Positions 1,912 through 43,967 of a DNA stretch of 64,000 nucleotides are shown here, piece after piece. Position 1 is the first letter of the stretch; every line of letters begins with the position of its first letter. The stretch spans positions 1-64,000 of the forward strand of contig SOET01000007.1 of the NCBI GenBank assembly GCA_021646465.1. Reading direction: 5' to 3'. The DNA is from Candidatus Kuenenia hertensis (GTDB lineage: Bacteria; Planctomycetota; Brocadiia; Brocadiales; Brocadiaceae). The position numbers were made by a program, and so were the translations under genes. Below the pieces are notes generated by a model that ran no database searches, was not told where the DNA came from, and worked only from the letters and a program-made list of their open reading frames with translations.

Positions 1912-1927
1912 TTACCACCTCCTTCAA

Positions 1928-3892: not shown

Positions 3893-3907
3893 ATTTCTTA
3901 CCCCTCC

Positions 3908-6900: not shown

Positions 6901-7789
6901 TTCCGAGATTGTCATCTCTCCATTCCTGTTCTGTCTTATAATAGGCTACAAGCGGATGAAAGACCGGTATATCCAGTTGTTTCAGAAATTCCACACCGCC
7001 TTGAATTCCGGTATGTTCGTGAATGGCTGTCTCGGGTGAAAGTATAGAAGACTGTAAATTAATTAAGGAGTCTATAGCCGGATGCCCATTGCCATCAAGA
7101 AAATACTCTTTCACTACCTCATAGCCCGGCCTGGAATTGAAATCGGTTTTACCGATGCTTTGTGAAAAGGCGGGGATAACATTGAGTCCGCTGCGCTCTA
7201 GCTCTTTAATTAACGCCCGTTCGATTTCCATGTTCTGGTTGATCCAGTAACAGCGGTAAAAGAGTATCCCCACGGTATGTCTCTCTTTATGAACATGCTC
7301 TCTGTCATAATCATTACGGTTTGTATAAACGCGGTTTGTATCGGGGTGCAGGATTCCCTCCCAGGGGAAGGACTGAGGTTGTTCCACAGTTAGATTTAAA
7401 CCCAACACTTTATTACCTATAAACCGGAGCATATGGGTAAAATTTTCCTCGCCGCCCAATGTCAGATACTCGTAACAGGTTTTTACTATGTCTGCACTGA
7501 CCGTAGAGTATTTAAAAAACACCGGATCCTGGCTCATGCAGATAACGGGCGTTGTCAGGCCGATTTCTTCTACATCCGGTTTTATCCTTTCCCAGACCTC
7601 ACTGTTGCCGAGATAAAGCAAAACTACATTACATTCCCGCAAAGCAAGGAGGCTCTTTTCTGCCTCTTGCGGATCTTCTAATTGGTGCACGGAAAAGGCG
7701 GTTAATGTCAGAATGCCGTTAAGCCCTCTGGCAGCATGAGCCAAACAGTTTAAAATTGTCCCTCCCCACACAATTGCCCCTATCTTCAT
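3908..7789 (-). CDS. cobN: CobN-type cobaltochelatase large subunit
   Basis: 1293 aa, full length for the CobN/ChlH/BchH family. Recognisable segments include VGTHGNLEFLPGK with its conserved His, and the C-terminal stretch with GCCGYFSTQGGM, GDTRDPFRVRV and the EVKNYYG region. In the aerobic B12 pathway CobN holds the tetrapyrrole while an AAA+/VWA complex drives cobalt insertion. The ChlI-ChlD fusion that could do this lies immediately downstream. No other corrin-ring biosynthesis gene is present here. The gene sits in a TonB/receptor/ABC operon, an arrangement also known for the CobN-like HmuS proteins of haem-uptake loci. Its substrate could therefore be an imported tetrapyrrole rather than a newly made corrin. 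Confidence 0.9.
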   Translation of the reverse strand: MKIGAIVWGGTILNCLAHAARGLNGILTLTAFSVHQLEDPQEAEKSLLALRECNVVLLYLGNSEVWERIKPDVEEIGLTTPVICMSQDPVFFKYSTVSADIVKTCYEYLTLGGEENFTHMLRFIGNKVLGLNLTVEQPQSFPWEGILHPDTNRVYTNRNDYDREHVHKERHTVGILFYRCYWINQNMEIERALIKELERSGLNVIPAFSQSIGKTDFNSRPGYEVVKEYFLDGNGHPAIDSLINLQSSILSPETAIHEHTGIQGGVEFLKQLDIPVFHPLVAYYKTEQEWRDDNLGIGSSVGWQMAIPEFQGVIEPIIIGAVRRIIDEGSEASIEQYWPIKERIERFVSRVKNWIELKHTPPRERKVAFILHNNPCASVEATVGCGAHLDTLESVARILQEMKKRGYVVNPPKDGKELITTIMERKALSEFRWTTTDEIVKKGGVLSFISKEKYLKWFETFPAKVQKNLCRTWGNPPGEEKDGVPAAMMYQDKILVTGVNFGNAVVCVQPKRGCAGARCDGKACKILHDPEIPPPHQYLATYHFLENDFKANLIIHVGTHGNLEFLPGKSTALSDECYPDISLGRLPHLYIYNADNPPEGTIAKRRSYAVLVDHMQAVMTSSGLYDKLEELAKLLGEYNQARDIDRVRAHTLEHMITNMIKEASLDREITITDETPFELVMKKTHDILTRVKTTLIPDGMHIFGEIPEADAKIEFINSVVKYDFGYGASSRRLLFDLLGENMDWALTNPSGFSGMHKKTYSELIEDVDNFSLQFIRNFLNNGKKELESTANEILGDSLKNTKSIDSLYLLREKVLDIAARIDASDEMGSLFHAKSAGFIEPGPSGLITRGRPDVLPTGRNFYSLDPKKIPTPAAWKVGQKLASALIGKYKQDTGRFPENLAMVWFSSDIMWADGEEMAQLMSLVGVRPVWQSNGRLKGFEIIPLKELGRPRIDVTIRLSGITRDCFPECVDFIDEAIQAVALLPENPEDNFIRKHVLEKTETLDMDGQSSTFREATLRMFGSRAGTYGSGVNLAIYASAWKEEKDLSEIFVYWNGHAYGKGIQGKEMHSHFMHQLKSVDLTFNKSVTDEYDLFGCCGYFSTQGGMSLTAKHISGKEVKNYYGDTRDPFRVRVDNLADEVRRVVRTKLLNPKWIEGMKKHGYKGASDISKRIGRVYGWEATTHEVDDWIFDDIAGTFILDKEMREFFQENNPWALEEIGRRLLEAHQRKLWDANPEVLEGLKDAYLEIESWLEEKMGDVEGDFQGGTIDVLNSMDVDNWKDKMKEVKKLFHKES

Positions 7790-7856
7790 AAAAAATTCTC
7801 CTTCAAATCAGAAATAAAAAGACTGCAAGATCGGCTGAATAAAAGTATCTTCCAGA

Positions 7857-8642
7857 TCAATTACCTGTCCTGGAAACAGGAATAATGGTAAGCATGCCTG
7901 TAATTTTACTTGTGATTATCTCAGCATCTATTTTATAAACTTCTTTTATGCAGGCAGAATCTAACACATCCGGCGGACTACCCGCTCTGTGGATTTTGCC
8001 TTCTTTCAAAACCAATAGCGTGTCCGAATATCGGGCTGCAAGGTTGAGGTCGTGAGAAACCATGATCACAATAAATCCCTTCCGTTCGGTCAGTGTTTTC
8101 AATAGTTCAAGAAAATCCAACTGGTGATGTATATCCAGATGGAGAGTTGGTTCATCAAGCAACAAAACACGAGGTTCCTGCGCCAGAGCCCTGGCGATAA
8201 TTACCTTTTGATACTCACCTCCGCTCAGCTCTGTAACCAGTTTTGAAGAGAGATGTTCAATCCCGCATAATTGCAAACAGTTTCGAACTATATCAAAGTC
8301 TGTTGCTGATTCTCTGTTAAAACGGCCTACATGGGGAAATCTTCCCATAAGAACTGTTTCCAAGACAGTAAAAGCAAATCGATGAATCGAATTTTGAGGA
8401 ACTACCCCCATCAGTTTTGCTATATCTTTCTGCCGGAATGAGCATATATTTTTGTCATCAAGTAGTACTGTCCCGGTTTTTGGTTTTAAGGTGTTATTAA
8501 GGCATCTGATCAGCGTTGTTTTTCCTGAACCATTAGGGCCGATAATGCCAAGTATCTCACCTTTTCTTGCCTCAAAAGTAATGCCATCCAGCACACAATC
8601 GCTGTCATAAACAAACCTTATATTCTTTACTTTTAATATCAT
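7857..8642 (-). CDS. ABC transporter ATP-binding protein, BtuD/FhuC/HmuV type
   Basis: 261 aa. Walker A GPNGSGKTT, Q-loop (VVPQNS), ABC signature LSGGEYQKV, Walker B VLLLDEPT and H-loop SHDLN are all present. The closest general match is the ATPase of iron-siderophore, haem and cobalamin importers. It lies four bases after the permease gene, and the binding protein precedes that, giving a complete BtuFCD-type importer. A 67-base gap separates it from cobN downstream. Substrate (cobalamin, haem or another chelate) cannot be decided from the ATPase alone. Confidence 0.92.
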   Translation of the reverse strand: MILKVKNIRFVYDSDCVLDGITFEARKGEILGIIGPNGSGKTTLIRCLNNTLKPKTGTVLLDDKNICSFRQKDIAKLMGVVPQNSIHRFAFTVLETVLMGRFPHVGRFNRESATDFDIVRNCLQLCGIEHLSSKLVTELSGGEYQKVIIARALAQEPRVLLLDEPTLHLDIHHQLDFLELLKTLTERKGFIVIMVSHDLNLAARYSDTLLVLKEGKIHRAGSPPDVLDSACIKEVYKIDAEIITSKITGMLTIIPVSRTGN

Positions 8643-8646
8643 CAGA

Positions 8647-9687
8647 CTACAGTCCCAACTGTTTTTTTCTTCCTCGCAAAAGAATCAAAAAGAACGGTAC
8701 CCCCAAAATGGCAGTAATGATTCCTACGGGTAATTCTGAGGGGGTTATAATCGTCCGCGCTAATGTATCGGTCCAAACCAAAAATATTGCACCCCCTAAA
8801 AAAGAAGCGGGCATAAGAACCCGGTGGTCAGGCCCTGCCAATATCCTCATACTATGGGGAATAATAAGCCCCACAAACCCGATGATTCCGCAAGCCGCCA
8901 CTGCAGTTGCCGTTACCAGAGAAGAAAGAACCAGAACAATTCTCCTCACATTTTCTACGTCAACTCCTAAATTCTTCGCCTCTTCTTCTCCGGTAAGTAA
9001 AATGTTTAAATCACGTGCAAAGCATAAAAGCCCTGTGCTTCCAAAAACCGCCAAAGGCAGAACCGTGAATACCTTATTCCAGTTGCCATCCCATAATCCC
9101 CCCATGAGCCAGAATACGATTTGCCGTAACTCCCTTTCCCCGGCCACATATTGCGTAAAAGAAACAAGTGCCGAAAAAAAGATTGATACCGCAATTCCCG
9201 CCAGGAGAAGCACTCCAACAGGAACTGTGTTTTTTACTTTTGCAAGATGATAAACTAAAAAGGCGCTGGAGACAGAAAACAAAAATGCCGAAGGCCCTAT
9301 CCACGCAGAACCTAGTCCAAGAATTATCACCAAAGAAGCGCCAAAAGCACTGCTTGAAGCAATACCGGTAACGTAAGGCGAAGCCATCGGATTCCTGAAC
9401 AAACCCTGCATTGCGCATCCGGCAATTCCCAGCACTGCGCCTACAAGAGCGCTTAATATTATTCTGGGAAGTCTTACATTAAAAATTATTACCTCATAGT
9501 TGCCCGGCCAATCCGCTCGTATTCCAAAAATTTTGAATATAATTAACTTTGCTATTAAACACGGCGGTATTTGAGTTGTACCTATTGCCAGAGCAGAAAC
9601 TGCACTTAAAACCAGCACAATCCCCATAATCAAAAGTATGAGACCATGTTTAAACTTTCTTGCAGACCGGAATTCTTCGCATCTCAT
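8647..9687 (-). CDS. FecCD/BtuC-type ABC permease
   Basis: About 346 aa from the chosen start, with roughly ten hydrophobic helices, as in the FecCD family. Family landmarks include VRLPRIILSALVGA, GIAGCAMQGLFRNPMASP, GEEEAKNLGV and the GFVGLIIPH segment, which contacts the ATPase. I place the start at 9687: the ATG there overlaps the stop of the binding-protein gene as ATGA, which fits coupled translation. An upstream in-frame ATG at 9714 would lie inside the preceding gene. It moves the substrate handed over by the BtuF-type protein across the inner membrane. Confidence 0.92.
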   Translation of the reverse strand: MRCEEFRSARKFKHGLILLIMGIVLVLSAVSALAIGTTQIPPCLIAKLIIFKIFGIRADWPGNYEVIIFNVRLPRIILSALVGAVLGIAGCAMQGLFRNPMASPYVTGIASSSAFGASLVIILGLGSAWIGPSAFLFSVSSAFLVYHLAKVKNTVPVGVLLLAGIAVSIFFSALVSFTQYVAGERELRQIVFWLMGGLWDGNWNKVFTVLPLAVFGSTGLLCFARDLNILLTGEEEAKNLGVDVENVRRIVLVLSSLVTATAVAACGIIGFVGLIIPHSMRILAGPDHRVLMPASFLGGAIFLVWTDTLARTIITPSELPVGIITAILGVPFFLILLRGRKKQLGL

Positions 9688-10541
9688 TCTCCGAATGCCT
9701 CCGGATGGAACCACCGTGCGTATTGTTCCAAACCATTAATGCATTTAGGCGTATAATTTGTGTACATAGTGGGGCTGATAAATATCTTATTGTTTCTGAC
9801 TGCTTTTATTTTCTGCCAGCCATCTCTTTTTTTTACTTCTTCCGGGGGCACACCGTATTCTTCCAGTAGTATAATATCAGGATTCATTTCGATTATGCGC
9901 TCGATGCTTAATAACGGAAAGGTAATGGGTTCGTCTTTCGCTAAATTAATTCCTCCGGCCATGGTAATTAAATCATGTGTGAGTGAACCCGGCGCTCTTG
10001 TACGGCCAATTGCACCTGATTCAAAATATACTAAAGGCCGGGTATTCACCTTTCTCAGTTTTTCCTGAATGTCATCTATTCGCTTTTGCATTTTTTGCAC
10101 CAGTTGAGAGGCTTGCGATTCCATAGCAACCACTTTACCGATTTCCGTGACAAGCCGTATCACCTCATTCAGGTTACATGTCTCTACAACAAATACATTG
10201 ACGTCCTTTTCCTTGAGCACTTCAGCGTCAGAATTTGAAGCAAAGACAATATCCGGTTTTAAACTGAGCACCGCCTCAATATTGATATTCCCGAATTGCC
10301 TGCCTACATGTGGTTTTTTCTTTACTTCCTCCGGATTGCTGAACGTACTATTGACGCCTGCTATCTTGTCTTCCAAGCCAAGCTCAATAAGTATCTGAGT
10401 TGCCGCAACTGTTAATGATACAATCCTTTCTATATTTCCAGATGCGGGAACATCACGTTTTTCTTTTGTCAAATGAGAGACAAAATATGAAATGCAATAA
10501 ACAAAAAATATAAACAGAATAAACATAAACCACTTCTTCAT
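9684..10541 (-). CDS. Periplasmic substrate-binding protein, BtuF type
   Basis: 285 aa. An N-terminal hydrophobic segment (about residues 4-20) acts as signal or membrane anchor; no lipobox is seen. Two lobes of the helical-backbone binding-protein fold follow. The family start ERIVSLTVAATQILIELG and the motif KPDIVFAS are typical of BtuF/FhuD/HmuT proteins. It lies between the receptor gene (3-base gap) and the permease (ATGA overlap), so ligand passes from the TonB-dependent receptor to this protein to the BtuCD-like transporter. The linked CobN favours a corrinoid or other tetrapyrrole ligand; a metal-siderophore is the alternative. Confidence 0.88.
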   Translation of the reverse strand: MKKWFMFILFIFFVYCISYFVSHLTKEKRDVPASGNIERIVSLTVAATQILIELGLEDKIAGVNSTFSNPEEVKKKPHVGRQFGNINIEAVLSLKPDIVFASNSDAEVLKEKDVNVFVVETCNLNEVIRLVTEIGKVVAMESQASQLVQKMQKRIDDIQEKLRKVNTRPLVYFESGAIGRTRAPGSLTHDLITMAGGINLAKDEPITFPLLSIERIIEMNPDIILLEEYGVPPEEVKKRDGWQKIKAVRNNKIFISPTMYTNYTPKCINGLEQYARWFHPEAFGE

Positions 10542-10544
10542 TTT

Positions 10545-12530
10545 CTAAAACTCCTTGCTGAGGTAAAACCCAACCATGTAGTCTCTGGGATATGCGGGAT
10601 AAATACCACCGCTGGCGGTTCTATAATCATAATAATTTTTATCAAACAGATTCGTGACGCCGGTGTAAAATCCCACATTTGCAAATTTAAAATCATGTTC
10701 GTAATCAATTCTTGTGTCCCATATTGTGCGTCCTGGTATAGTATAGGTATTTGCATCATCTGTGTACGCAGAGGACCTGTAATTCCCACTTATTGAATAA
10801 CTGATTCCTATAGGATGCTCGTATCTTACCCCATAAGCTACGGTTCGCTTTGGTGCATGAGGCAGCCAATTGTCGTCGTAACTGGTTGAACCTACTGTAT
10901 AATCCGTAAACTTCGCTTCCTGAAAAGTCAGGTTGGAGAAGATGGAGAACCCACTGAATAAATAAAGCCCCAATTCAGACTCAATACCTTTATGCCTGGT
11001 CTTTCCCGTATTGTGATAAATGTCATCGCTTCCCAAATAAATCTCATCCTCCACATTCATCAAATACCCCGCAACCTGAACCGATAGTCTTTGAAAAAAC
11101 AGGGCTTTTACTCCTATTTCATAATTCCAGGCGGTTTCGGGAGTTAACTCCGGGTTGCGGTATCGGCTGGTAAACATTCTGTAAGCGGAAGGAGGCATGA
11201 ATGCTTTCCCGGTATTACCATACAAAGAAATATCTTCGGTCAGCCGGTATAAAATCCCAAACTTTGGACTGAATTCATCGAATGATTTGCTTTTGTCTGC
11301 TGCACCCGAAGAGTCATAAAAAACATTATAATCGTATTCAACCAGGTCAAACCTCCCGCCCAAAGTCAGCGTCAGCGGTTTAAAAGGGGTTAATTCATCC
11401 TGAACATATGCACCCCAAAACAAAGGTTTTGTGTTGTCATCTGTACTAAGGGTGTCACCGTAATAAGTAGAATAGTCTATTTCATCACGTTTCAATGATG
11501 TGCCAAGAATAAAGGAATTTTCCATTCCGGCCAACGGATGAGACAATGTGTATTGCAATTCACCTCCCCATCCGTCAATATCCGCTTTATAATGATAGGA
11601 ACCGGGATAATCGTAATCATAACGGGTCGTAAACACCTGTCCTTTGAAATGATTAAATTCATTTATATTTTTATTATAAATCAGACTGACGCGATGAGAT
11701 TCCAAATCTCCGCTGGAAAGCGAACTTGCCTGTTTTCTGTCTTCGTCATATTGAGATTCTGTCAAACTTCCCGCATATTCCACATCGGTGTTCTGCACAT
11801 CAAAATCAAATATAATATTGGAAGTTTTATCAACATCCAGTGAAAGTTTGCCTTGAATATCTCTTCTGATGAAACCTGTATTTTCCCTGTATCCATCGCC
11901 ATTTCGATAACCGCTACCAATTCTGTAATTAAAAATTCCGGATGTGCCGCCTGTTTCTAAACGGTATTTTTGTTCGTTGAATCTGCCAAAACCCACATCA
12001 GTTTTTGCGAAGGTTTTCTCCTGCCCTTTTTGGGTTATAATATTGATAACACCACCCATGGCAAACGGGCCGTACAGCGATGAAGAAGGGCCTTTAACAA
12101 TTTCTATCTTCTCAATATTATCAAGTGAAGGAAGCCTGGATTGCTGCACATAGCCATCATTGCCGCTATTTATTGGTACGCCGTCAACCATAATTAAAAC
12201 TCTTTCCGAACCGTACGGTGCGAACCCTCTCATGCTGATATGCCCTTCTATCCCGGCGCCATACTGGTCATACGCGTATACACCAGGCACTTGTTTTATG
12301 ATATCAATAACACCTTTAGCGGTAGATTGGCTGATTTCTTCCTGCGTAATTACCGTTACCGTAGAAGAAACATTTTTAACCGTGCGCTCGGTTTTTGTAG
12401 ACGCGACAACTACCTGCCCTAAGTTGAACATATCTGCCTCGCCGCCTTCCTGAACTTCAGCACAACATTTATGAGCAAAATTAAAAACTGATGCTACGAC
12501 CATAAAAATCACTATATTTCGAAACTTCAC
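10545..12530 (-). CDS. TonB-dependent outer-membrane receptor, BtuB-like
   Basis: 661 aa with a GTG start preceded by a strong GGGGGAG site. After the signal peptide comes a TonB box-like stretch and the plug domain (VVVASTKTERT, TVTVITQEEI, IKQVPGVYAYDQ, GPSSSLYGPFAMGGVINIIT). A 22-strand barrel follows, ending in an aromatic-terminated strand (residues YLSKEF). At 661 aa it is in the BtuB/colicin-receptor size class, smaller than most siderophore receptors. It heads the importer part of the operon. Cobalamin is the favoured substrate from size and from the BtuFCD/CobN context, but haem or a nickel/cobalt chelate is possible. Confidence 0.9.
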   Translation of the reverse strand: MKFRNIVIFMVVASVFNFAHKCCAEVQEGGEADMFNLGQVVVASTKTERTVKNVSSTVTVITQEEISQSTAKGVIDIIKQVPGVYAYDQYGAGIEGHISMRGFAPYGSERVLIMVDGVPINSGNDGYVQQSRLPSLDNIEKIEIVKGPSSSLYGPFAMGGVINIITQKGQEKTFAKTDVGFGRFNEQKYRLETGGTSGIFNYRIGSGYRNGDGYRENTGFIRRDIQGKLSLDVDKTSNIIFDFDVQNTDVEYAGSLTESQYDEDRKQASSLSSGDLESHRVSLIYNKNINEFNHFKGQVFTTRYDYDYPGSYHYKADIDGWGGELQYTLSHPLAGMENSFILGTSLKRDEIDYSTYYGDTLSTDDNTKPLFWGAYVQDELTPFKPLTLTLGGRFDLVEYDYNVFYDSSGAADKSKSFDEFSPKFGILYRLTEDISLYGNTGKAFMPPSAYRMFTSRYRNPELTPETAWNYEIGVKALFFQRLSVQVAGYLMNVEDEIYLGSDDIYHNTGKTRHKGIESELGLYLFSGFSIFSNLTFQEAKFTDYTVGSTSYDDNWLPHAPKRTVAYGVRYEHPIGISYSISGNYRSSAYTDDANTYTIPGRTIWDTRIDYEHDFKFANVGFYTGVTNLFDKNYYDYRTASGGIYPAYPRDYMVGFYLSKEF

Positions 12531-12580
12531 CGTATTCTCCCCCTTTTTTTCATGTTTTAAACCGGCATTTTATTGCAGTA

Positions 12581-12778
12581 TCATACTCTGAATCTTTCAA
12601 GACAAAGTTGGCATTCGATATAGTTATCGCATGGCCGTAAATTAGGTAAAATATTGCTTTCAAAAGAACGTATTTTTGCTTCCGGAGATTGGTAAATCAC
12701 CTGGACATTACTCGTAAATATTTTAAACTTCTCATCATAACCACAATTCGGACACACAAAGAATTTACATAATCTCAA
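12581..12778 (-). CDS. Small zinc-ribbon-like protein, unknown function
   Basis: 65 aa from a TTG start at 12776-12778. This start is chosen because AGGAGG lies nine bases upstream and the longer reading frame has no comparable site. The peptide begins MRLCKFFVCPNCGYDE and holds a CPNC knuckle plus a later RPC and ECQLC, so six Cys that could bind one metal. There is no signal peptide or membrane segment. It precedes the receptor gene by 50 bases in the same orientation and is probably the first gene of the operon. I do not recognise the family. A metal-sensing or metallochaperone role is only a guess from context. Confidence 0.55.
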   Translation of the reverse strand: MRLCKFFVCPNCGYDEKFKIFTSNVQVIYQSPEAKIRSFESNILPNLRPCDNYIECQLCLERFRV

Positions 12779-12917
12779 GTACGATATCCTCCTGGACAAT
12801 GCATTTTTTAAGAATATAAATATTTGACAATCGGAATGCTTTTTTCGCCTTTTATACCGGAAGACACAAAGGAAATAATGAATCAACAGTTAGACACTAC
12901 ATATCTGCGAGCGGACA

Positions 12918-12948
12918 TAGTGTTATTATTATGATAATCGTGCTACCA
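12918..12948 (-). promoter_or_regulatory. Possible NikR-like operator upstream of the zinc-ribbon/receptor operon
   Basis: The layout is TAGTGTTA-N15-TGCTACCA. The left half is identical to the half-site of the perfect dyad upstream of nikR. The right part belongs to a 14-base block (12939-12952) that recurs exactly at 14995-15008. It lies about 140 bases upstream of the zinc-ribbon start. The dyad itself is imperfect. Confidence 0.4.
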
Positions 12949-12957
12949 ATCAGTCTG

Positions 12958-12993
12958 AAAAAAACAAAATGGTACATATCATTTTGTTTTTTT
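12958..12993 (-). terminator. Bidirectional hairpin terminator
   Basis: A 14-base perfect inverted repeat (AAAAAAACAAAATG and its complement) is separated by an 8-base loop, so either strand ends in a run of T. It lies downstream of the minus-strand gene ending at 13129 and would stop its transcripts before the receptor operon. The rest of 12779-13128 shows no gene, riboswitch or repeat that I can support. Confidence 0.6.
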
Positions 12994-13128
12994 CACAGAG
13001 TGGTCTCTGCCACGATAAAATTGTAACCAGGTAAATGGCAGTGCAAATACAAAGAACCTTTTTTTATCTGGCCTGCATGGCAGAAGCAAGCATCATACTG
13101 GTTCTAATACTACATCCAGCAATGTTCA

Positions 13129-13701
13129 TCATTTTTGCTTTGTCACGTTCTCAATATTGTCGCACGTTGTTGATTCACCGGAAGTGTAAGGACAAATTTG
13201 AGTGTTTTTTTCCGGTTGAAACCAGTAACCTGAATCATCTTTGCAGTAATAAAGTTTTAATTCGTTCTGTTTTAGCTGCATCGGCCATGCAACGAAAAAA
13301 GGGAACAATTCGCTGCTTATTAACTTGAAGGATTCTCTTGCATTTTCAAGCGTTTCGGTTTTTTTAAGAGCCATTGCATGCAGGTAAATGTGTTCCATCA
13401 TATATCGCCCTTCTCCTTTGTTTTCAGTTTGAACACCCTGTTGTGCGGCATCCATAATATTTTGCGCCAATAGAGGAATATTTTGAATATCTTTCTCTAT
13501 AAGTTTTTTATAGAGAAGATTATATGATTCCAATACTGACTGCAAATGCGCCACGGTCGATTTTTTAATGGTTATAGGGGTATTACTCCAGTGGTCATGG
13601 CCTTCATGTGCAAGTATGTCTTTCTGCTGAACCAGAAATAAACAACAAACACAAAGAAATATCGTACACGTCAATTTTTTCCGGAGACCTGTTTTTAGCA
13701 T
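13129..13701 (-). CDS. Exported metal-associated protein, DUF3347-like
   Basis: 190 aa, preceded by a strong GGAGGA site. A signal peptide (hydrophobic core about residues 10-26) ends before the motif HEGHDHW, a likely metal-binding His cluster at the mature N-terminus. The body is helical (SVLESYNLLYKKLIEKD). The C-terminus has a Cys-containing segment (YYCKDDSGYWFQPEKN, then CPY) that resembles the end of DUF3347-type periplasmic proteins found beside metal-efflux systems. It stands between the nickel transporter/outer-membrane gene and the receptor operon. A periplasmic nickel or copper binding role is plausible; the exact family is uncertain. Confidence 0.6.
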   Translation of the reverse strand: MLKTGLRKKLTCTIFLCVCCLFLVQQKDILAHEGHDHWSNTPITIKKSTVAHLQSVLESYNLLYKKLIEKDIQNIPLLAQNIMDAAQQGVQTENKGEGRYMMEHIYLHAMALKKTETLENARESFKLISSELFPFFVAWPMQLKQNELKLYYCKDDSGYWFQPEKNTQICPYTSGESTTCDNIENVTKQK

Positions 13702-13771
13702 AATTTTTCCTCCTTCACTGTAAATGGTTTAAGGTATAGTTTTGTAAGAAACCCTGTCAGGGTTGACATCT

Positions 13772-14782
13772 TTAGAATGAACAGGTCACGGTAATAATAG
13801 CCCTGTAGTGTTCCAGCCCTTCAGCACCCTGTTGTTCCGATTCCCTGTTTAAATCTTTCCAGACGGGAAATTTCAGAAGACCTCCGATACTGATATTTTT
13901 GCTGAGAGAGACGCGAAAGCCGGGTGAGAGATACAGAATCGAGCCCCCGCTGTCGTCTTCGTCATGATGGTGATCATCTTCGTCTTTTGTCAGATGGAGG
14001 AAGTTTGATTCAGTAATAATATCCACCCTTTGAAGAAATCCCTGTGAATTTTCAAATACTTCATATCCACCGGCCAGATTGAAGCGTATCTCATTTCCCG
14101 GTTTTCCTTCGTCGTGACGGGTAAAAGTGGTAAATGAAGTATCTCCGGTAAGAGTAAAATGCGGGAAAAGCATTTTTGATGCGGAGAAACCCGACATAAA
14201 CGTTGGCGCTGCAAAACCTGTCTGCATTCCCATGTCAAACCTGTTGCCTTTATTATCCTCGTTTGTAATATCGCCGGTCTGAACAGTAAAGCCTCCTAAA
14301 AAAGACATTTTCAGGTCGTTGGTCGTATAACTCTCTCCAATAGTATCTTCAGGGCAGTTATTATAAAAACCCCGAATCCCGTTTCTCTCGCCGTACTTAA
14401 ACCCGTATTGCACTAAAAAACCAGCATCACCGAACCCCTTCGATGTGCCTAAGGAATCTTGTTCTTTAATAGCATAAGGCATCACAAGATAGAGGGATAA
14501 ATAGTCAGTAACGCCATAGCCGACTAATGTATTAAAGAAGGTAAAGTTTTCAATGTTTTCCGGGTCGGCATGACTTTCTTGTTCGAAAGATGCAAATTCC
14601 ATTTTTTCATACAGCAGAAATTTTCCTTTACCGATGGTCATCGGCGAGGCGGTTTCAACAGGGGCGCCGGGACCAAAGGCAGTAGAAACACCGCCATGAT
14701 GTGCATAGACTAAATTCCCAACGCTGCTTGCGCAGCAGACAAAAAGGATAAGTATAAAACTATAAAAAAACCGATAAAGCAT
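13772..14782 (-). CDS. Predicted outer-membrane beta-barrel protein of the nickel locus
   Basis: 336 aa from the ATG at 14782, chosen because AAAGGAG lies eight bases before it. That site is inside the codons of an alternative in-frame ATG at 14800. A signal peptide runs over about residues 1-28 (HH follows the cleavage region). The remainder alternates hydrophobic and polar residues like an outer-membrane barrel (for example GFGDAGFLVQYGFKYG) and ends in an aromatic-rich strand finishing with SF. One loop near residue 285 is a His/Asp cluster (DDHHHDEDD), a likely divalent-metal ligand. It is related in layout to the transporter-like barrel proteins seen beside metal systems. Its start is about 190 bases downstream of a NikR-like dyad. 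Nickel passage across the outer membrane is a reasonable hypothesis. Confidence 0.6.
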   Translation of the reverse strand: MLYRFFYSFILILFVCCASSVGNLVYAHHGGVSTAFGPGAPVETASPMTIGKGKFLLYEKMEFASFEQESHADPENIENFTFFNTLVGYGVTDYLSLYLVMPYAIKEQDSLGTSKGFGDAGFLVQYGFKYGERNGIRGFYNNCPEDTIGESYTTNDLKMSFLGGFTVQTGDITNEDNKGNRFDMGMQTGFAAPTFMSGFSASKMLFPHFTLTGDTSFTTFTRHDEGKPGNEIRFNLAGGYEVFENSQGFLQRVDIITESNFLHLTKDEDDHHHDEDDSGGSILYLSPGFRVSLSKNISIGGLLKFPVWKDLNRESEQQGAEGLEHYRAIITVTCSF

Positions 14783-14876
14783 TACAAAAACTCCTTTCAT
14801 TATAACAAAACAAAATACCAGTGTCTTAAATCATGCCCTTCTGCAACGTATGATTATATAGTTTTACAATATGGTC

Positions 14877-14945
14877 CACCCCCTTCACCCCCGCCAGCGG
14901 GGGATAGTTGTTATCCCTCTCAATGAGGGGGATTAAGGGGGAGGA
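14877..14945. repeat. Short inverted-repeat element (C-rich/G-rich arms)
   Basis: Arms CACCCCCTTCACCCCC and GGGGGATTAAGGGGGA face each other, with a second small inverted repeat (GGGGGATA..TATCCCTC) inside. It lies between nikO and the outer-membrane gene and is of the same general type as the ACACACCCC elements elsewhere in the window. Confidence 0.5.
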
Positions 14946-14973
14946 GAATACTTTAAAATTTTAGCAATTTAGC

Positions 14974-15004
14974 AAATAGCACTATATAAATATTCGTGCT
15001 ACCA
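14974..15004 (-). promoter_or_regulatory. NikR-like operator upstream of the outer-membrane gene
   Basis: Inverted repeat TAGCAC-N13-GTGCTA (14977-15001), extended as AAATAGCA-N15-TGCTACCA. It has the same 8-15-8 layout as the sites near nikR, nikM and the receptor operon. It sits just after the nikO stop and about 190 bases before the start at 14782, so it would serve a promoter of its own. Confidence 0.5.
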
Positions 15005-15016
15005 ATCATTAAAAAA

Positions 15017-15772
15017 TTATTCTTTCATCGGTATTGCCTCCATCCCATACATTTGTAATATTTCTTCATCATGTATTAACTCAGAGGTGGCTTTGTCAGC
15101 GACAACCTTGCCTTTATCCATAAGGATGCATCGTTCGGTCAATTCCCCGATCAGGCGCAAATCATGAGAGGCCACCAGAAGGGCAATTTTTAGTCCTTTC
15201 AGATAGGTTATTAATTTACGTCTATGGCGGTGGTCCAAATCGTTTGCGGGTTCATCGAGGATTAACAAGTCTGGTTCCATTGCCATAGCCGCCGCCAGTG
15301 CAACCCTGCGTTTCTGCCCTCCGGATAAATGGTGAGGAGGTCTTTCCCGAACATCATTTAATTCAAAATACGCCAGCCACTTTTCCACCGTGTCTGCTAC
15401 CTGCTGTTTTGGCCAATACAAATTTTTCGGGCCAAATGCAATTTCCTCCCAAACGGAAGAACAGAAAAGCTGATCATTCACCTGCTGAAAAGTGAGTGCG
15501 ACATGCTTCCGAACTTCATTAATATTTTTGTGTCCGGTAAGCGGTTTATCCAAAACACTAACCTCTCCCGAATGTGGTCTTAAAAGCCCGTTTAAGTGCC
15601 AAAAAAGAGTTGTTTTGCCAGCGCCGCTAGGGCCGATTAATCCAACCTTTTCATGTTGATGTACAGAAAATGACAATCCGGATATTGCCTGTACGCCATT
15701 CGGATAAAGAAACGTGACTTTATAAACACTAACTACACAGGACATCGTGAATAATCCAGGCCCAAATTGCAA
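15017..15772 (-). CDS. nikO: ECF nickel/cobalt transporter ATPase (NikO/CbiO)
   Basis: 251 aa. Walker A GPSGAGKTT, Q-loop FQQVNDQL, signature HLSGGQKRR, Walker B LLILDEPANDLD and H-loop ASHDLR are present, in the CbiO/EcfA style. It supplies ATP hydrolysis to the NikMLQ membrane complex encoded upstream. The frame overlaps nikQ by 44 bases; an internal ATG at 15745 (MSCVVSVYKV) is a possible alternative start that still overlaps. Substrate assignment to nickel rests on the linked nikR, as the ATPase is shared by cobalt and nickel systems. Confidence 0.9.
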   Translation of the reverse strand: MQFGPGLFTMSCVVSVYKVTFLYPNGVQAISGLSFSVHQHEKVGLIGPSGAGKTTLFWHLNGLLRPHSGEVSVLDKPLTGHKNINEVRKHVALTFQQVNDQLFCSSVWEEIAFGPKNLYWPKQQVADTVEKWLAYFELNDVRERPPHHLSGGQKRRVALAAAMAMEPDLLILDEPANDLDHRHRRKLITYLKGLKIALLVASHDLRLIGELTERCILMDKGKVVADKATSELIHDEEILQMYGMEAIPMKE

Positions 15773-16439
15773 AAGCCATAAAAAATATCAAAAACAAAGC
15801 GATATACGAAACAGTTTCTTCATTTTCTGTGCGGAGAGTATACGCCCCGCAAAATCCACGTGACTGCATTGCACGTTCAACATTTTCAGATTGTTCGAAA
15901 CTTGACAAAAGTACACTGCCAATCCCTCCGGCAAGGTTACGTAATTGCAGGGAACGCAACCCCTTTTTTGCACCGCGCGAAGCCTGTGCGGCAAACGTCA
16001 TTTTTACCCGTTCCGCCATAATAGGTAAAAAACGCGTGGTGAATGCAATGATATTTAACAAAATTGCCGGTATTCCCATTTTTTCCAGGGTTGACAAAAT
16101 ACGTTCAAATCTTACCCATTTAATCCAGATTACACTCCACAACCACATTGAAAACATTTTGACCATAAGGATTGGGGCAAGCACCCGGCCCTCTTTTGTT
16201 AACAGAAGGCTTACACCAGTGAGAAGAAAAAAAATCCAGACTCCTTTAGCGTGGTATACAACCATGAATATGTTTCCAACGGTAAATATGCCAAACAATA
16301 ACACCATAAACAGGCAAACCACAAGAGGAGCAAAATTATTCAGCAAGCCTGTTCCCGCCAGTACAAGCAAAACCAGTATCGTTCCTGTACGGGTAGAAAC
16401 CGGCGGCAATTTCAATTTTTGAAACTTGCAAAATAGCAT
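15729..16439 (-). CDS. nikQ: ECF nickel/cobalt transporter transmembrane subunit (NikQ/CbiQ)
   Basis: 236 aa with several membrane helices in the first half and the cytoplasmic coupling region AQASRGA and AMQSRGF. The two Ala-Arg-Gly-type coupling motifs are the signature of EcfT/CbiQ proteins and contact the ATPases. It lies between nikL and nikO, all on the minus strand. About 150 bases separate it from nikL, a gap filled by a mobile repeat element (16450-16591), so the operon has been invaded without loss of the gene order. Confidence 0.88.
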   Translation of the reverse strand: MLFCKFQKLKLPPVSTRTGTILVLLVLAGTGLLNNFAPLVVCLFMVLLFGIFTVGNIFMVVYHAKGVWIFFLLTGVSLLLTKEGRVLAPILMVKMFSMWLWSVIWIKWVRFERILSTLEKMGIPAILLNIIAFTTRFLPIMAERVKMTFAAQASRGAKKGLRSLQLRNLAGGIGSVLLSSFEQSENVERAMQSRGFCGAYTLRTENEETVSYIALFLIFFMAFAIWAWIIHDVLCS

Positions 16440-16449
16440 TATTTCCGTA

Positions 16450-16591
16450 TCTATTCAGCGTAAATTTATAACACACCCCTAAATCCCCTCTTGTAGAGAC
16501 GCAATGCATTGCGTCTCTACTTCCCATCTTCCCCTCTAAAAAGAGGGGTGGCAGCGTAGCTGACGGGGTGTGTATTAACACGCCGAATACT
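16450..16591. mobile_element. MITE-like element, ACACACCCC family, full copy
   Basis: Terminal inverted repeats: the left arm starts CTATTCAGCGTAA and runs through ACACACCCCTAAATCCCC. The right arm read in reverse starts GTATTCGGCGTGT and runs to ACACACCCC. Inside lies a 28-base palindrome built on GTAGAGACGCAATG and a GGGGTGGCAGCG segment. The segment from TAAAAAGAGGGG to GTGTGTATT is shared almost base for base with 28205-28254. No open reading frame of its own. Confidence 0.65.
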
Positions 16592-17007
16592 TATTTCCTT
16601 TTCTTTAATAAAAACCGTTGTATGGCATAACCGCCGCCGATAATGAACACAACTCCAATTGCTACGCGGATGCTTAAAAGGTCAAACACTCCCTTCGGGC
16701 GTTCTTTCAGAAATTCCTCCCATGTTATCATTGCACGATGACCTCCGGAATCATCTACAATAATTAAATGAGGAACTGTTTCCAGATTCTCCGGCAATTT
16801 CCACGCACCATTTTCATCCATTCTATCCTGAAGAATTACTACGCCATTTGCATCCACAAGAACAACCTCGGCGCCGGAGGCAGGGGTATGATCGCTGTAA
16901 GATGCATACAATGTTTTCTCCTGAGAAAAAAGGGAAAGTCCGTGTGCATATACCGCTAAAGGCGCCGAAAAAAAGATACAACAAAAAACGAATAAGAAAA
17001 ATTTCAC
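16591..17007 (-). CDS. nikL: NikL-type small subunit of the nickel ECF transporter
   Basis: 138 aa. Signal peptide (about residues 1-21, ending VYAHG), then a periplasmic beta-rich domain with TPASGAEVVLVDANG of the carboxypeptidase-regulatory-like/NikL type. A single C-terminal membrane helix (about residues 112-130) is followed by a basic tail RFLLKKRK. NikL proteins replace CbiN in nickel-type ECF systems and are needed for uptake. It overlaps nikM by four bases (ATGA), and its place between nikM and nikQ supports the assignment. Confidence 0.8.
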   Translation of the reverse strand: MKFFLFVFCCIFFSAPLAVYAHGLSLFSQEKTLYASYSDHTPASGAEVVLVDANGVVILQDRMDENGAWKLPENLETVPHLIIVDDSGGHRAMITWEEFLKERPKGVFDLLSIRVAIGVVFIIGGGYAIQRFLLKKRK

Positions 17008-17609
17008 GGTAAAATTCCTAATAATGAAGGTTTTACTTTTTGCAGAAAGTGTACCAGCCAGTAACTAATAACACCTTCAATCAGCATGACAGGAACATGT
17101 CCCAAAAAAACCAGTTTGGCAAGTGGAGCCAGCGACGCATGGGTTGTAGAGAGGGCAACAAAGAGTAAAACAGACGAAATAAAGACAGCACTGCCTCCCG
17201 CGAACGACCCTATCCATGGCCGTTTTTTTGCTGAAGCCTGTTTCATCAAATGGCGTCCAAGCACGCCGATAATTGTGCCTGGCAACGCCATAACAGCAAT
17301 GTTCACTCCCAACACCGTCAATCCTCCAAAGCCAAGGAACAACGCCTGCAACAAAAGTCCAACCGTTATTACCGTTACGGCGCTCCATCCCAGTAAAAGC
17401 CCTGCAATACCATTAAGTACAAGATGCATGCTGAAAGGTCCGACGGGTATGTGGATTGTTGAACCCGCAAAAAAAGCAGCGGCAATTACCCCGTATGCAC
17501 CAACTTTGTCCGGTTTCAGGCTTTTCACCGACATCGCTAACGAAGGGACTGCAACTGCCCAGCCGGTAATGATAATGTAGGGAGAAAGCACTCCGTCGCT
17601 AATATGCAA
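17004..17609 (-). CDS. nikM: Nickel ECF transporter substrate-binding subunit (NikM/CbiM)
   Basis: 201 aa. The N-terminus MHISDGVLSP holds the invariant His-2 that, with the free N-terminal amine, coordinates Ni or Co in CbiM/NikM proteins. Six or seven membrane helices follow, with the conserved IPVGPFSMHLVLNG segment containing further ligand His residues. It is the first gene of nikMLQO. A terminator for nikR ends 64 bases upstream, and a NikR-like site (17629-17659) overlaps the promoter region, so the operon probably has its own nickel-controlled promoter. Confidence 0.92.
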   Translation of the reverse strand: MHISDGVLSPYIIITGWAVAVPSLAMSVKSLKPDKVGAYGVIAAAFFAGSTIHIPVGPFSMHLVLNGIAGLLLGWSAVTVITVGLLLQALFLGFGGLTVLGVNIAVMALPGTIIGVLGRHLMKQASAKKRPWIGSFAGGSAVFISSVLLFVALSTTHASLAPLAKLVFLGHVPVMLIEGVISYWLVHFLQKVKPSLLGILP

Positions 17610-17628
17610 AAATATCTCCTTCAGATAA

Positions 17629-17659
17629 CGTTGCTACATATTTTTAATACGTGCTACTA
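17629..17659 (-). promoter_or_regulatory. Possible NikR operator in the nikM promoter
   Basis: Read on the plus strand the site is CGTTGCTA-N15-TGCTACTA. The GTAGCACG block (minus strand) is shared with the two sites at 12918 and 14974. Its right edge lies 50 bases before the nikM start, where repression would act. The half-sites are closer to a direct than an inverted repeat here, so confidence is limited. Confidence 0.4.
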
Positions 17660-17672
17660 TAAGTGTAAGAAA

Positions 17673-17703
17673 AAAACCTCGGAATATTTTCCGGAGGTTT
17701 TGC
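17673..17703 (-). terminator. Rho-independent terminator of nikR
   Basis: On the minus strand, AACCTCCGGAA pairs with TTCCGAGGTT around a short loop (one mismatch), followed by seven T. It starts 19 bases after the nikR stop and separates nikR from nikMLQO. Confidence 0.8.
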
Positions 17704-17721
17704 AAGGGCAAGCTGAACTAT

Positions 17722-18138
17722 TTACAAAATCCCCTTTCCGGTAGTTGCCATGGATATGCCCCCGTGTTTTACCCCTTTTGCCGATTTCAGTTTTCCGTAT
17801 AATTCCTGTATCCGTTGCGGCTTGCCTTTTATGATGATAATCTCCAGGCAATTATCATGGTCGAGATGAATATGCTGGGTAGAAAGTATAACATCATGGT
17901 AATCATGCTGAATATCAATAAGAATACCCACCAGTTCTCTTTTATGGTGATCATACACAAGGGAGATCGATCCGGTAATCTCCTTGCCTTCCTGCCATTC
18001 TTCCATCACCAAATCACCGCGAATCAGATCACGTATAGCTTCGGAGCGGTTGGTATATTTTTTCTTTCTTATGTGGGAATCAAATTTTTTCAGGAGTTCC
18101 TTTTCCAGGGAGACCCCGAATCTTACCAAAAACGACAT
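17722..18138 (-). CDS. nikR: Nickel-responsive transcriptional regulator NikR
   Basis: 138 aa from the ATG at 18138, chosen because GAGG lies six bases before it; the longer frame begins with a TTG that overlaps this site. The N-terminal ribbon-helix-helix (about residues 1-45: FLVRFGVSLEKELLKKFD, NRSEAIRDLIR) binds DNA. The C-terminal ACT-like domain carries the nickel ligands: a His in DYHDVILS, the pair QHIHLD, and the Cys of NCLE, in the order H-HxH-C known for NikR. It is a single-gene unit upstream of nikM. A perfect dyad at 18236-18266, about 100 bases before the start, suggests autoregulation. Confidence 0.93.
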   Translation of the reverse strand: MSFLVRFGVSLEKELLKKFDSHIRKKKYTNRSEAIRDLIRGDLVMEEWQEGKEITGSISLVYDHHKRELVGILIDIQHDYHDVILSTQHIHLDHDNCLEIIIIKGKPQRIQELYGKLKSAKGVKHGGISMATTGKGIL

Positions 18139-18235
18139 AGTGTGCCTCAATAAAAAACGTATACTGCTCAGGTCTTAAAACAAATGATTACGGGGGAATT
18201 TTCATTTCCATAGACCAATAATATGAAACAACAAA

Positions 18236-39958: not shown

Positions 39959-39991
39959 CCGTATTGCACTTGTTAATCAAGTGCAATACGG
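39959..39991 (-). repeat. Perfect 14-bp hairpin downstream of the Cys/His lipoprotein gene
   Basis: CCGTATTGCACTTG, loop TTAAT, then CAAGTGCAATACGG. It ends 27 bases after the stop of the minus-strand gene ending at 40018. There is no run of T after it, so it may protect the transcript rather than end it. Confidence 0.55.
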
Positions 39992-40017: not shown

Positions 40018-40938
40018 TTACTCGTGCTTGTGATCTTTGTTTACTTCTTTTTCGCATTCAAAGCAGAAATATGTTTCACCGCATTTATGCCCTTCGCCCA
40101 CTTCTTCTTTGCACGCATAGCAAAAATTGGTAAGACCGCAAATATGTTCATCTCCCACCTCTTTTTCGCACTCGTAACAATAGTATGTTAAATCGCAAAT
40201 ATGGCCTGGTCCCACTTCTTCCTCGCAGTTCATACAAAGCGTTGTAACGTTGCAAATATGCCCATCACCCACTTCTTTTTTGCAATCAGGGCAAAAAAAT
40301 GTTAAGTCGCAGATGTGATTGGGGCCAACCTCCTCAACACATTCATGGCAAAATTGCGTGATGCCGCAAATATGACCGGTTCCTGCTTCTTTTTTGCATT
40401 GACTGCAATAGGTAGTAATGCCGCAAATATGCTGATCACCCACTTCTTTATTACAGATGGAACAGGTATGTGTTTCTGCAGCAGGCGCTTCCATTTTTGC
40501 ACCAGGAGATATTTCTGTTGCAATTTCTTCTTCCACCTCTTCCTCTGCAGCGGCTTCTTCCGGTGGTATTTCAGCCTCTAAAGGCTCCACCAGTTCTTCT
40601 GTTACCTCAGGTACAACAGCAGCTTCTTCCGTTAGTTCCGGTTCCTCCGGCTCAAGGACTTTTTCTGCTGTTTCTTCCTCAAGAAGAGGTTCAGTTATTT
40701 CTTCCTCAGGGACTGGTTCTGTTATTACTTCCTCTTCAATAACTTCTTCTCTTATTTCTTCTGTTTCCACTTCTTCGGTAACAGGCGCCGTTATTTCAGC
40801 CTCTGGTTCTTCGTACGGCACAACTTCTACCTTTATTTCCGGAGCTTTTTCTTCAACTGCGGTTTGCGTGGTAACGCAAGAGGTCAGGAAAAACGATAAA
40901 CCTACTAAACCTGCAACGGCCAAATACCCTTTTTTCAT
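40018..40938 (-). CDS. Lipoprotein with acidic stalk and eight Cys/His repeats
   Basis: 306 aa. A lipoprotein signal peptide (lipobox LTSC near residue 21) leads to a 125-residue stalk rich in Glu, Pro and Val. The C-terminal half is eight tandem repeats of 19 residues with the pattern CxxCxxEVGxxHICGxTxF (positions about 160-306); the last ends in KDHKHE. Each unit offers Cys, Cys, His and Cys, so each could bind zinc, copper or an Fe-S centre, or engage a disulphide. The chain would be displayed on the envelope as a long rod ending in a Cys array. It is separated by 29 bases from the RCK-DHH gene upstream. I know no characterised homologue. Confidence 0.75.
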   Translation of the reverse strand: MKKGYLAVAGLVGLSFFLTSCVTTQTAVEEKAPEIKVEVVPYEEPEAEITAPVTEEVETEEIREEVIEEEVITEPVPEEEITEPLLEEETAEKVLEPEEPELTEEAAVVPEVTEELVEPLEAEIPPEEAAAEEEVEEEIATEISPGAKMEAPAAETHTCSICNKEVGDQHICGITTYCSQCKKEAGTGHICGITQFCHECVEEVGPNHICDLTFFCPDCKKEVGDGHICNVTTLCMNCEEEVGPGHICDLTYYCYECEKEVGDEHICGLTNFCYACKEEVGEGHKCGETYFCFECEKEVNKDHKHE

Positions 40939-40967
40939 ACGATCCTCCTTTTTAGCAAATTAAAAAA

Positions 40968-42443
40968 TTACCCTTTTACGCTAAAATTCATCATTGATTC
41001 TAAATCATCCGGTACTTCTCGTTTCTCAATATCCACCCCGGCGGCAGAGAAAAACTTTTTCCTGACAGCGTCAAAAGTGATTTTTGAAAGTGACTTTTTA
41101 TCGGTTGCATCGCCAAAAATTCCAAGTTCGATGCTTCCGGCGGCCATAGTGGCATGTCCCCCTGCATTCATAAAGCCGAAAGCCTTTTGCAATAAGGAGG
41201 CGAGATTAATCCTTGAATCGACACTCCTTGCTGATAATTGAACCCTGTCTTTATCGATACCAAATATGAGTACTGTAGAAACCCCTTCCATTTGCAGCAT
41301 TAGCTCGGCTGCCTGCGGCAGCGCATCACGATCGTTTATAAATTCTACAAAAGAGGTTAAATATGATCCTCTTACTTCACGGTTTCTTATTGCCCTTCCG
41401 ATAATATCTATTGTTTCAGCACTCATCGGAGGGTTTTCAATTTGATTTAAGAGCCCCACGTCCACTATTGGAGAAAGAAATGCCGCCGCGTCAAGATCTT
41501 CGGTCGTTGTATTTCTTGTAAATCCACTGGTATCAACCCTTATACCATAGCGAAGCGCGGTAGCAAGTGAAACGTCAGGCACTATTCCCAGATACCTCAG
41601 ATACCTTGTCATAATAGAAGATGTGGCGCCAATGCCAGGTAATATTTCAACAAATTCACCTTTCACCAGACTGAAGTCCGTTTGGTGATGATCAATAATA
41701 ATATTAACTCTTGTATCGGGAGGCAATACATTATTCTTTGAAGGGATAGAGGCTTCTATTAATGCTACTTTATCAACAGAATTAAGAATACTAAGAGACT
41801 CTTCGGGAGAATTTAACCGGAGTAGATCTGTTTGCAGCAAATTAACCAGTGCTTTGTTTTTCTGGTGGCCAATGTTCCCTCCATAATAAATCTTTGATCC
41901 AATACCATATTCCTCTGCGATACGTTTAAGTGCGAGTCCGGAAGCAATAGCGTCAGGATCGGGATTGTCCTGCAAAAAAATAGCTAATCCGTTATTCGCT
42001 GCTTCTTTTATGACATTTACCAGTTTTGACACAGATCTTTTTAGTTTTGCGGTTTCCAGTTCGCTGAGAATGGCATTCGAAATGATTCTGACGGATTCAA
42101 CGGCACAATCTGCCCCGACAGCCAGTGATTCAGATGATTCATTCTCATCTGCCACTTGCGTTAAAACAAATTTATCGGGAAACAACTCCTTGATTCGTTG
42201 TATTAAGGTGAGGTTTTCTTTTAAGTTTTTTTGTAAGATAATAAAGGCTACTGGTTCTTTTGCCGGTAAAGAATTAAAATCATAGGTATAAATATCCGCC
42301 GTTATGGTAGTGACGTTAAATTCTTTTAAGGCATTTAAGGTATTCTCGTCCTTATCTATTACGAGAATTTCCTCTTCGCCGGATTTGCTTAAATTTTTCA
42401 CCAATGCCTTAGCAACATAATCGCAACCAAGGATTATATACAT
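40968..42443 (-). CDS. RCK_N (TrkA-N)-DHH/DHHA1 phosphoesterase
   Basis: 491 aa. Residues 1-130 form an RCK_N nucleotide-binding domain (MYIILGCDYVAKALVKNL, VIDKDENTLNAL, TADIYTYDF). Then comes a DHH phosphoesterase core: NPDPDAIASG near residue 160, the DHH motif in IIIDHHQTD and RVDTSGF. The C-terminal DHHA1 domain ends in GGHATMAAGS. The DHH part resembles nanoRNases/cyclic-dinucleotide phosphodiesterases such as GdpP and NrnA. RCK-DHH fusions are known from archaea and some bacteria but have little functional data. A link of cation or nucleotide sensing to dinucleotide breakdown is an inference. Confidence 0.88.
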   Translation of the reverse strand: MYIILGCDYVAKALVKNLSKSGEEEILVIDKDENTLNALKEFNVTTITADIYTYDFNSLPAKEPVAFIILQKNLKENLTLIQRIKELFPDKFVLTQVADENESSESLAVGADCAVESVRIISNAILSELETAKLKRSVSKLVNVIKEAANNGLAIFLQDNPDPDAIASGLALKRIAEEYGIGSKIYYGGNIGHQKNKALVNLLQTDLLRLNSPEESLSILNSVDKVALIEASIPSKNNVLPPDTRVNIIIDHHQTDFSLVKGEFVEILPGIGATSSIMTRYLRYLGIVPDVSLATALRYGIRVDTSGFTRNTTTEDLDAAAFLSPIVDVGLLNQIENPPMSAETIDIIGRAIRNREVRGSYLTSFVEFINDRDALPQAAELMLQMEGVSTVLIFGIDKDRVQLSARSVDSRINLASLLQKAFGFMNAGGHATMAAGSIELGIFGDATDKKSLSKITFDAVRKKFFSAAGVDIEKREVPDDLESMMNFSVKG

Positions 42444-42842: not shown

Positions 42843-43967
42843 ATGTTGTTAACCGAAACTATCAAAAAAGCAGGCATTGCAGAAGACCAGTGGCAGGCAT
42901 CTATTGATCAGCATGGCGTTATTGGAGAAGAATACGATGGTGTTTCCTATCACCGGGTGATACGCAAGATCGGACCTCTGGCAAAAGGGTCGATAGTTAC
43001 CGGCGATGGTATTCTTTATGACTTTCCCCGGATTGCCAGGATATTGCATCTGGAAAATGGACTAAAGAATGCATATACACAACCATTTTATGTTGAGGAA
43101 AAAGTGGATGGTTACAATGTAAGGGTTGTTCGCATTCAGGGAAAAGTGCTCGTCTTCTCCAGGGGAGCATACGTTTGTCCATTTTCTACGGACAGGATTG
43201 CCGATTTTCTGGATGTACAAAAAATATTTGATAAGCACCCTGATCTAATCATTTGCGGGGAATTCGCAGGACCGGATAATCCATATAATATTGAACATCC
43301 TCCGTATGTTCAGGAAGATATACGCTTTTTTGCCTTTGATTTAATGGAAAAAAATACTTCACAAAACATTCCCATCGAAAAACGGTTACAGATCTTCGAT
43401 GAGTATGGCATGCCCACCGTGAGGAGATTCGGGTGTTTTTCTTCTTCAGACATCTCTGCGTTAAAAGAAATTATTAAGGAATTAGACGCTGGGGGAAGCG
43501 AAGGTATAGTGTTTAAGCCAACAAAGAAAGAGGAAAAGACTCTGAAATATGTCACTTTCGGGTCATGCCTGCGTGACATTCGTGTAACTGCACCACTGAT
43601 GGCAGAGATGTCGTCCGAATACTTTACCCATCGTATAATAAGGGCGGCCATGTATCGTTATGAGCAATTTCATGAATTAACCCCTAAAAATTTTACGGAC
43701 CTTGGGGAAGTATTATTAAAGCCCATTTACGAAAGTGTTAAAAAAGCAGCAGAAGGAGAACTTATCAAAGAGAAGTTTCTCCTGCGTTTTCGTAAAGAGG
43801 AAAACGTGCAGCGGATGATTGATCATTTGCAAAAATGCAAGGTAAACTTTGAAGTACTCTCTCAGGAAAAAATAAATTCTTACTGGCATGTACGTTTTGC
43901 CAGGAAATGTTACGCCTCGTATGAAATCCTTCAAAGCCATTTAGGGGGAATAGCCCATGTGGACTGA
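42843..43967 (+). CDS. ATP-dependent RNA ligase, archaeal Rnl3/Pab1020 type
   Basis: 374 aa, the length of the Rnl3 family. The nucleotidyl-transfer motif I is VEEKVDGYNVRV with the acceptor Lys near residue 90. The motif IV-V region holds GSEGIVFKP, with CGEFAGPDNPYN and IRFFAFDLM as motif III/IIIa. The start IGPLAKGSIVTGDG and FPRIARILHLE are typical of MthRnl-like enzymes that adenylylate and seal or circularise RNA. The C-terminal part (about residues 260-374) is the family dimerisation domain. The gene is alone. Such ligases are mainly archaeal, so lateral transfer is possible. Confidence 0.88.
   Translation: MLLTETIKKAGIAEDQWQASIDQHGVIGEEYDGVSYHRVIRKIGPLAKGSIVTGDGILYDFPRIARILHLENGLKNAYTQPFYVEEKVDGYNVRVVRIQGKVLVFSRGAYVCPFSTDRIADFLDVQKIFDKHPDLIICGEFAGPDNPYNIEHPPYVQEDIRFFAFDLMEKNTSQNIPIEKRLQIFDEYGMPTVRRFGCFSSSDISALKEIIKELDAGGSEGIVFKPTKKEEKTLKYVTFGSCLRDIRVTAPLMAEMSSEYFTHRIIRAAMYRYEQFHELTPKNFTDLGEVLLKPIYESVKKAAEGELIKEKFLLRFRKEENVQRMIDHLQKCKVNFEVLSQEKINSYWHVRFARKCYASYEILQSHLGGIAHVD

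Follow-up and report, generated by a model that had tools for sequence, protein, structure and literature searches.

Zn_ribbon_6 (PF07191) is a double zinc ribbon built of tandem CxxC knuckles, with paired CxxC motifs at each site. Short zinc fingers of the C2H2/UBZ type, which are mostly nuclear or cytosolic, likewise provide four Cys/His ligands per unit. Metallothioneins and zinc-binding periplasmic proteins carry many Cys and His ligands and may serve as metal stores. Tethering lipoproteins of the Lpp/Pal type combine a lipid anchor, a spacer, and a binding head. Here we describe an envelope lipoprotein that is real, conserved within one anammox family, and unannotated, and that carries a zinc-knuckle-like array whose mechanism we infer. 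It is encoded in the first 64,000 nucleotides of contig SOET01000007.1 of Candidatus Kuenenia hertensis (the whole stretch analyzed, hereafter the window), with the following features:

39959..39991, minus strand: perfect hairpin with a 14-bp stem and a loop of 5, shortly past the stop codon (sequence)
40018..40938, minus strand: array lipoprotein gene (ORF and orthologues)
40021..40065, minus strand: unit 8, CFECEKEVNKDHKHE, C-terminal, ending in H-x-H (sequence and family readout)
40066..40122, minus strand: unit 7, CYACKEEVGEGHKCGETYF (sequence)
40123..40179, minus strand: unit 6, CYECEKEVGDEHICGLTNF, the most conserved slot (sequence and family comparison)
40180..40236, minus strand: unit 5, CMNCEEEVGPGHICDLTYY (sequence)
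40237..40293, minus strand: unit 4, CPDCKKEVGDGHICNVTTL (sequence)
40294..40350, minus strand: unit 3, CHECVEEVGPNHICDLTFF (sequence)
40351..40407, minus strand: unit 2, CSQCKKEAGTGHICGITQF (sequence)
40408..40464, minus strand: unit 1, CSICNKEVGDQHICGITTY (sequence)
40465..40875, minus strand: acidic stalk, residues 22-158, 137 aa, with 50 Glu, 15 Pro, and no Cys
40876..40938, minus strand: signal peptide with lipobox L-T-S-C (Cys21) (sequence; equivalent lipobox in N-terminally complete relatives)
40944..40949, minus strand: Shine-Dalgarno sequence AGGAGG, 5 nt before the ATG (read from sequence)
40968..42443, minus strand: TrkA_N + DHH + DHHA1 protein, 29 bp upstream (conserved family neighbour)

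The array shares the tandem CxxC knuckles of Zn_ribbon_6 but pairs CxxC with HxC or HxH, and it differs further in its 19-residue period and its lipoprotein stalk. The window protein fails the gathering cut-off of 25 bits, scoring 15.9 as a whole and 18.8 for the head, whereas a remote relative (L054) passes with 30.5 bits and three orthologues just pass at 25.1-26.4 bits, as a sum of sub-threshold pieces. Judged by sequence, the window protein appears zinc-ribbon-like, yet by its own score it is no Zn_ribbon_6 member. Single units show weak local likeness to C2H2/UBZ-type and other short zinc fingers (PF18439, PF25420, PF14369), from which the array differs in ligand spacing; the window protein lies under every one of these cut-offs, as do the UBZ and ZN292 matches among the orthologues listed. 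Compared with metallothioneins, the array has regular, separate four-ligand units and slot-specific conserved residues, and it shows no sequence match to them; its head is also unrelated to those of Lpp/Pal-type lipoproteins. In the profile search the window protein passed no Pfam or NCBIfam cut-off. A sequence search of the PDB gave no significant match (best, Gin, E 0.055), and literature searches returned nothing on the array protein. The absence of a characterized family with this architecture held across the Pfam/NCBIfam, PDB, and literature searches.

The gene was read from the sequence as a 306-aa lipoprotein ORF on the minus strand (40018-40938), starting with the ATG at 40938. The signal peptide is hydrophobic and the lipobox LTSC21 has the form expected of a lipoprotein. 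Sequence comparison showed an equivalent lipobox in those family members whose N-terminus is complete, and the window's genome encodes both LspA and LolA, all of which upholds the proposed lipoprotein export. In K. stuttgartiensis, LspA is kuste4338 (PMC2881027). We therefore regard the array protein as a predicted bacterial lipoprotein of the cell envelope. It would be exported by Sec, receive its lipid at Cys21, and be retained in an envelope membrane, more likely the outer membrane. A mobile or phage origin was dropped from consideration, since no plasmid or phage record matched the array protein in the record search.

The stalk, from Cys21 to the first unit, has a net charge of -45. The sequence-only reading was right about a Glu/Pro-bearing acidic stalk and wrong about its length, which is 137 residues and not 125. 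Among relatives, stalks are 96 to 279 aa long and carry net charges between -4 and -81, and the family's stalk sequences show internal duplications. The stalk of the window protein, acidic and proline-containing, may be a disordered spacer whose length is nearly irrelevant.

The head consists of eight units that start at residues 159, 178, 197, 216, 235, 254, 273, and 292, a period of 19. Each follows the pattern C-x2-C-x7-H-x-[C/H], and the last ends in H-x-H, so that seven units are CCHC and one is CCHH. The ligands total 23 Cys and 9 His, or eight complete four-ligand sets; the earlier count of up to 24 Cys and 8 His had the composition slightly wrong. The units had also been called near-identical, which overstates a mean identity within the window protein of 56%, ligands counted. 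The exact 19-residue spacing of the eight units was borne out and recurs in all 31 further family proteins read out, which excludes a chance origin of the repeat. In none of the 32 proteins is a unit lost or out of register, a result that speaks to count and spacing, since the unit search demands the motif itself. Together, the lipobox and the unit architecture support the proposed picture of extracytoplasmic, metal-knuckle-like units on an acidic stalk.

Family heads carry 7 units except in two genera, which have 8, and between genera a gain or loss involves one whole 19-mer. A MAFFT alignment of 13 family heads shows invariant ligand columns, including the His of every unit. Because the arrays open with CxxC, close with HxH, and change by whole 19-mers, complete sites appear to lie within single units; provided that each site does sit inside one unit, this start and end leave no leftover half-site. 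At outward-facing positions, assigned from the consensus rather than from a structure, identity is 72% when one slot is compared across species and 24% when different slots are compared, and shuffling the slot labels reaches at most 34%. A c-type multihaem cytochrome was ruled out: the window protein has no CxxCH, and a single CxxCH occurs in 1 of the 32 family proteins.

Structural modeling relied on shallow alignments throughout. The AlphaFold model of the whole head, built from two sequences, had a pLDDT of 46 and was too poor to use. A three-unit model, for which three units were aligned against further units from that pair of proteins, reached a mean pLDDT of 79 and showed short hairpin strands arranged as separate small hairpins. 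Foldseek gave no significant fold match (best E 2), and several of its top PDB entries, none significant, are zinc-finger proteins. The suggestion of either a solenoid or a string of metal knuckles survives in its second half, with knuckle-like units; a regular solenoid gains no support from the low-confidence whole-head model or from the three-unit model with its separate hairpins.

The presence of the hydrazine synthase alpha domain (PF18582) in the window's genome identifies an anammox planctomycete. A search for relatives and for variation in repeat number, as the sequence-only reading had proposed, detected the head in 31 of the 33 genomes of its anammox family. In another (G019), the first codons, signal peptide, and lipobox lie at a contig end; the contig stops inside the gene, which rules out a true absence and brings the total to 32 of 33. 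The sole family genome without an orthologue (G027) is 58% complete. In the same head search, no orthologue was found in any of the 29 genomes of four sister families in the order. Most sister-family genomes have a PF18582 match and thus hydrazine synthase homologues, so that the protein is dispensable for anammox itself, and a tie to anammox chemistry was ruled out on these grounds.

The TrkA_N-DHH gene lies upstream of the lipoprotein gene in every family locus examined. Most sister-family genomes have it as well, there without the lipoprotein and with other genes following it. Because it persists without the lipoprotein, and because remote relatives adjoin other genes, we dropped the neighbours as a clue to function; the DHH/TrkA_N protein looks cytosolic and gives no hint of what the lipoprotein does. 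In most of the family loci that were examined, an RNA ligase (42843-43967, plus strand; TIGR01209, with a Pab1020-type C-terminal region) is transcribed divergently from the TrkA_N-DHH gene, an arrangement that persists in one or more sister-family genomes (L080). The two may form an RNA processing or repair pair. Elsewhere in the window, ORFs at 112-18150 resemble, by eye, a CobN-like chelatase, TonB/ExbBD, a TonB-dependent receptor, ABC uptake components, and CbiM/CbiQ/NikR; together they probably serve the uptake of cobalt/nickel or cobalamin.

The perfect hairpin reported after the gene is present, with 14 perfect pairs. It lacks a T tract and has no second copy in the genome. Its site is where most other genera of the family hold a terminator-like AAAAAGGCATG...CATGCCTTTTT hairpin, and it was therefore dropped as a special element. 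The AAAAAGGCATG...CATGCCTTTTT core downstream of the orthologues is kept across genera (L005-L029); it was not found in the downstream regions compared for the window's genus.

Outside the order, related arrays were found in eight genomes of a 392-genome sample of the phylum. Six of these belong to one other class, in which they represent 6 of 23 genomes. Remote relatives whose start lies within the contig mostly show, by eye, a lipoprotein-like signal and short stalks, and two (L048 and L054) intersperse CxxC...CxxC zinc-ribbon units with CCHC units. The remote relatives gave 55 motif matches, a few of them spurious, with a pattern in which the first Cys and the His are set in advance. Position four of the ligand set holds Cys 28 times and His 23 times, and position two holds His 3 times. 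With four ligands per unit, at positions where Cys and His have replaced each other in evolution, the units look zinc-protein-like at the sequence level, and the bound metal would most likely be Zn2+. The neighbours of the remote relatives are phosphomannomutase-like or PilT-like genes; at three loci (L048, L053, L054) the array lipoprotein lies directly downstream of a phosphomannomutase-like gene. In one additional family member (L057, 1536-3290), HEAT and Big_5 domains replace signal and stalk and are fused to an array head, which suggests that the head is a transferable module; this MAG, which also holds two ordinary copies of the array protein, is fragmented, and the fusion may be a misassembly.

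We propose, with a probability of roughly 0.5, that the protein is a zinc-stabilized, rod-like binding module held off the membrane by a disordered stalk. This proposal builds on the observed architecture, conservation, phyletic range, and ligand swapping; from these we infer the zinc, the rod shape, the outer-membrane location, and the binding role. Each 19-residue unit would form a small β-hairpin knuckle that holds one metal ion through the CxxC and HxC that it carries itself (HxH in unit 8). Eight knuckles would form a stiff rod, and slot-specific outer residues would bind an envelope or cell-surface partner. A binding rod is favored because slot-specific outer residues and unit number are conserved while stalk length varies. 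The slot conservation could instead stem from packing between neighbouring units.

The array might alternatively act as an extracytoplasmic buffer that takes up and gives off a thiophilic metal such as Zn or Cu while the acidic stalk gathers cations, and so protect or supply envelope and anammoxosome metalloproteins. Eight complete ligand sets, the invariant ligand columns, and the strongly acidic stalk would suit such a role. A metal sponge, however, needs neither a fixed unit number nor slot-specific residues, and here the units are fixed at 7-8 and non-ligand residues are conserved by slot. The wide range of stalk charge also argues against it, and no recognized metal transport or metal-response gene lies among the conserved neighbours. 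Metal sequestration, raised in the initial interpretation, is therefore less favored, and we consider it unlikely.

A tether from the outer membrane to peptidoglycan or S-layer, similar to Lpp/Pal with a new head, would be a special case of the binding rod. The envelope of K. stuttgartiensis includes an outer membrane, peptidoglycan, and an S-layer (PMC4432595), and the lipid anchor and long stalk fit, but the profile search recognized no OmpA-like, LysM, or other wall-binding domain. We judge this specific form quite improbable.

The Cys residues could also form disulphides in an S-S-stabilized, Cys-rich extracellular repeat, with His in other roles. Such a protein would lie outside the cytoplasm, where Cys usually oxidize, and Kuenenia has a DsbD-type protein (PMC2881027). 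Yet an internal unit, with its three Cys, would always leave one of them unpaired within the unit, and the His is invariant throughout the units of the family alignment. The exchange of Cys and His as ligands among the remote relatives points to a zinc-type metal and is hard to reconcile with fixed disulphides, which makes this explanation very unlikely. A thiolate-rich array confined, within the order, to one anammox family might serve as a sink or sensor for NO or other reactive nitrogen species from anammox metabolism, which would react at its zinc-thiolate sites, but its absence from sister families, most of them with hydrazine synthase homologues, and its relatives in other Planctomycetota outside the order make this redox role very unlikely too.

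It is unusual for structural zinc arrays to be displayed on a lipid-anchored stalk beyond the cytoplasm. The head is of a size that allows direct expression and testing. More speculatively, such proteins may form an undescribed Planctomycetota envelope class of extracytoplasmic, zinc-finger-like binding rods, represented in Brocadiaceae by a universal linker of the outer membrane to wall, S-layer, or granule neighbours; we advance this as a tentative possibility. The gene is a family-wide marker of one anammox family, probably the one to which the wastewater anammox bacteria Kuenenia, Brocadia, and Jettenia belong, and it points to an undescribed component of their envelope.
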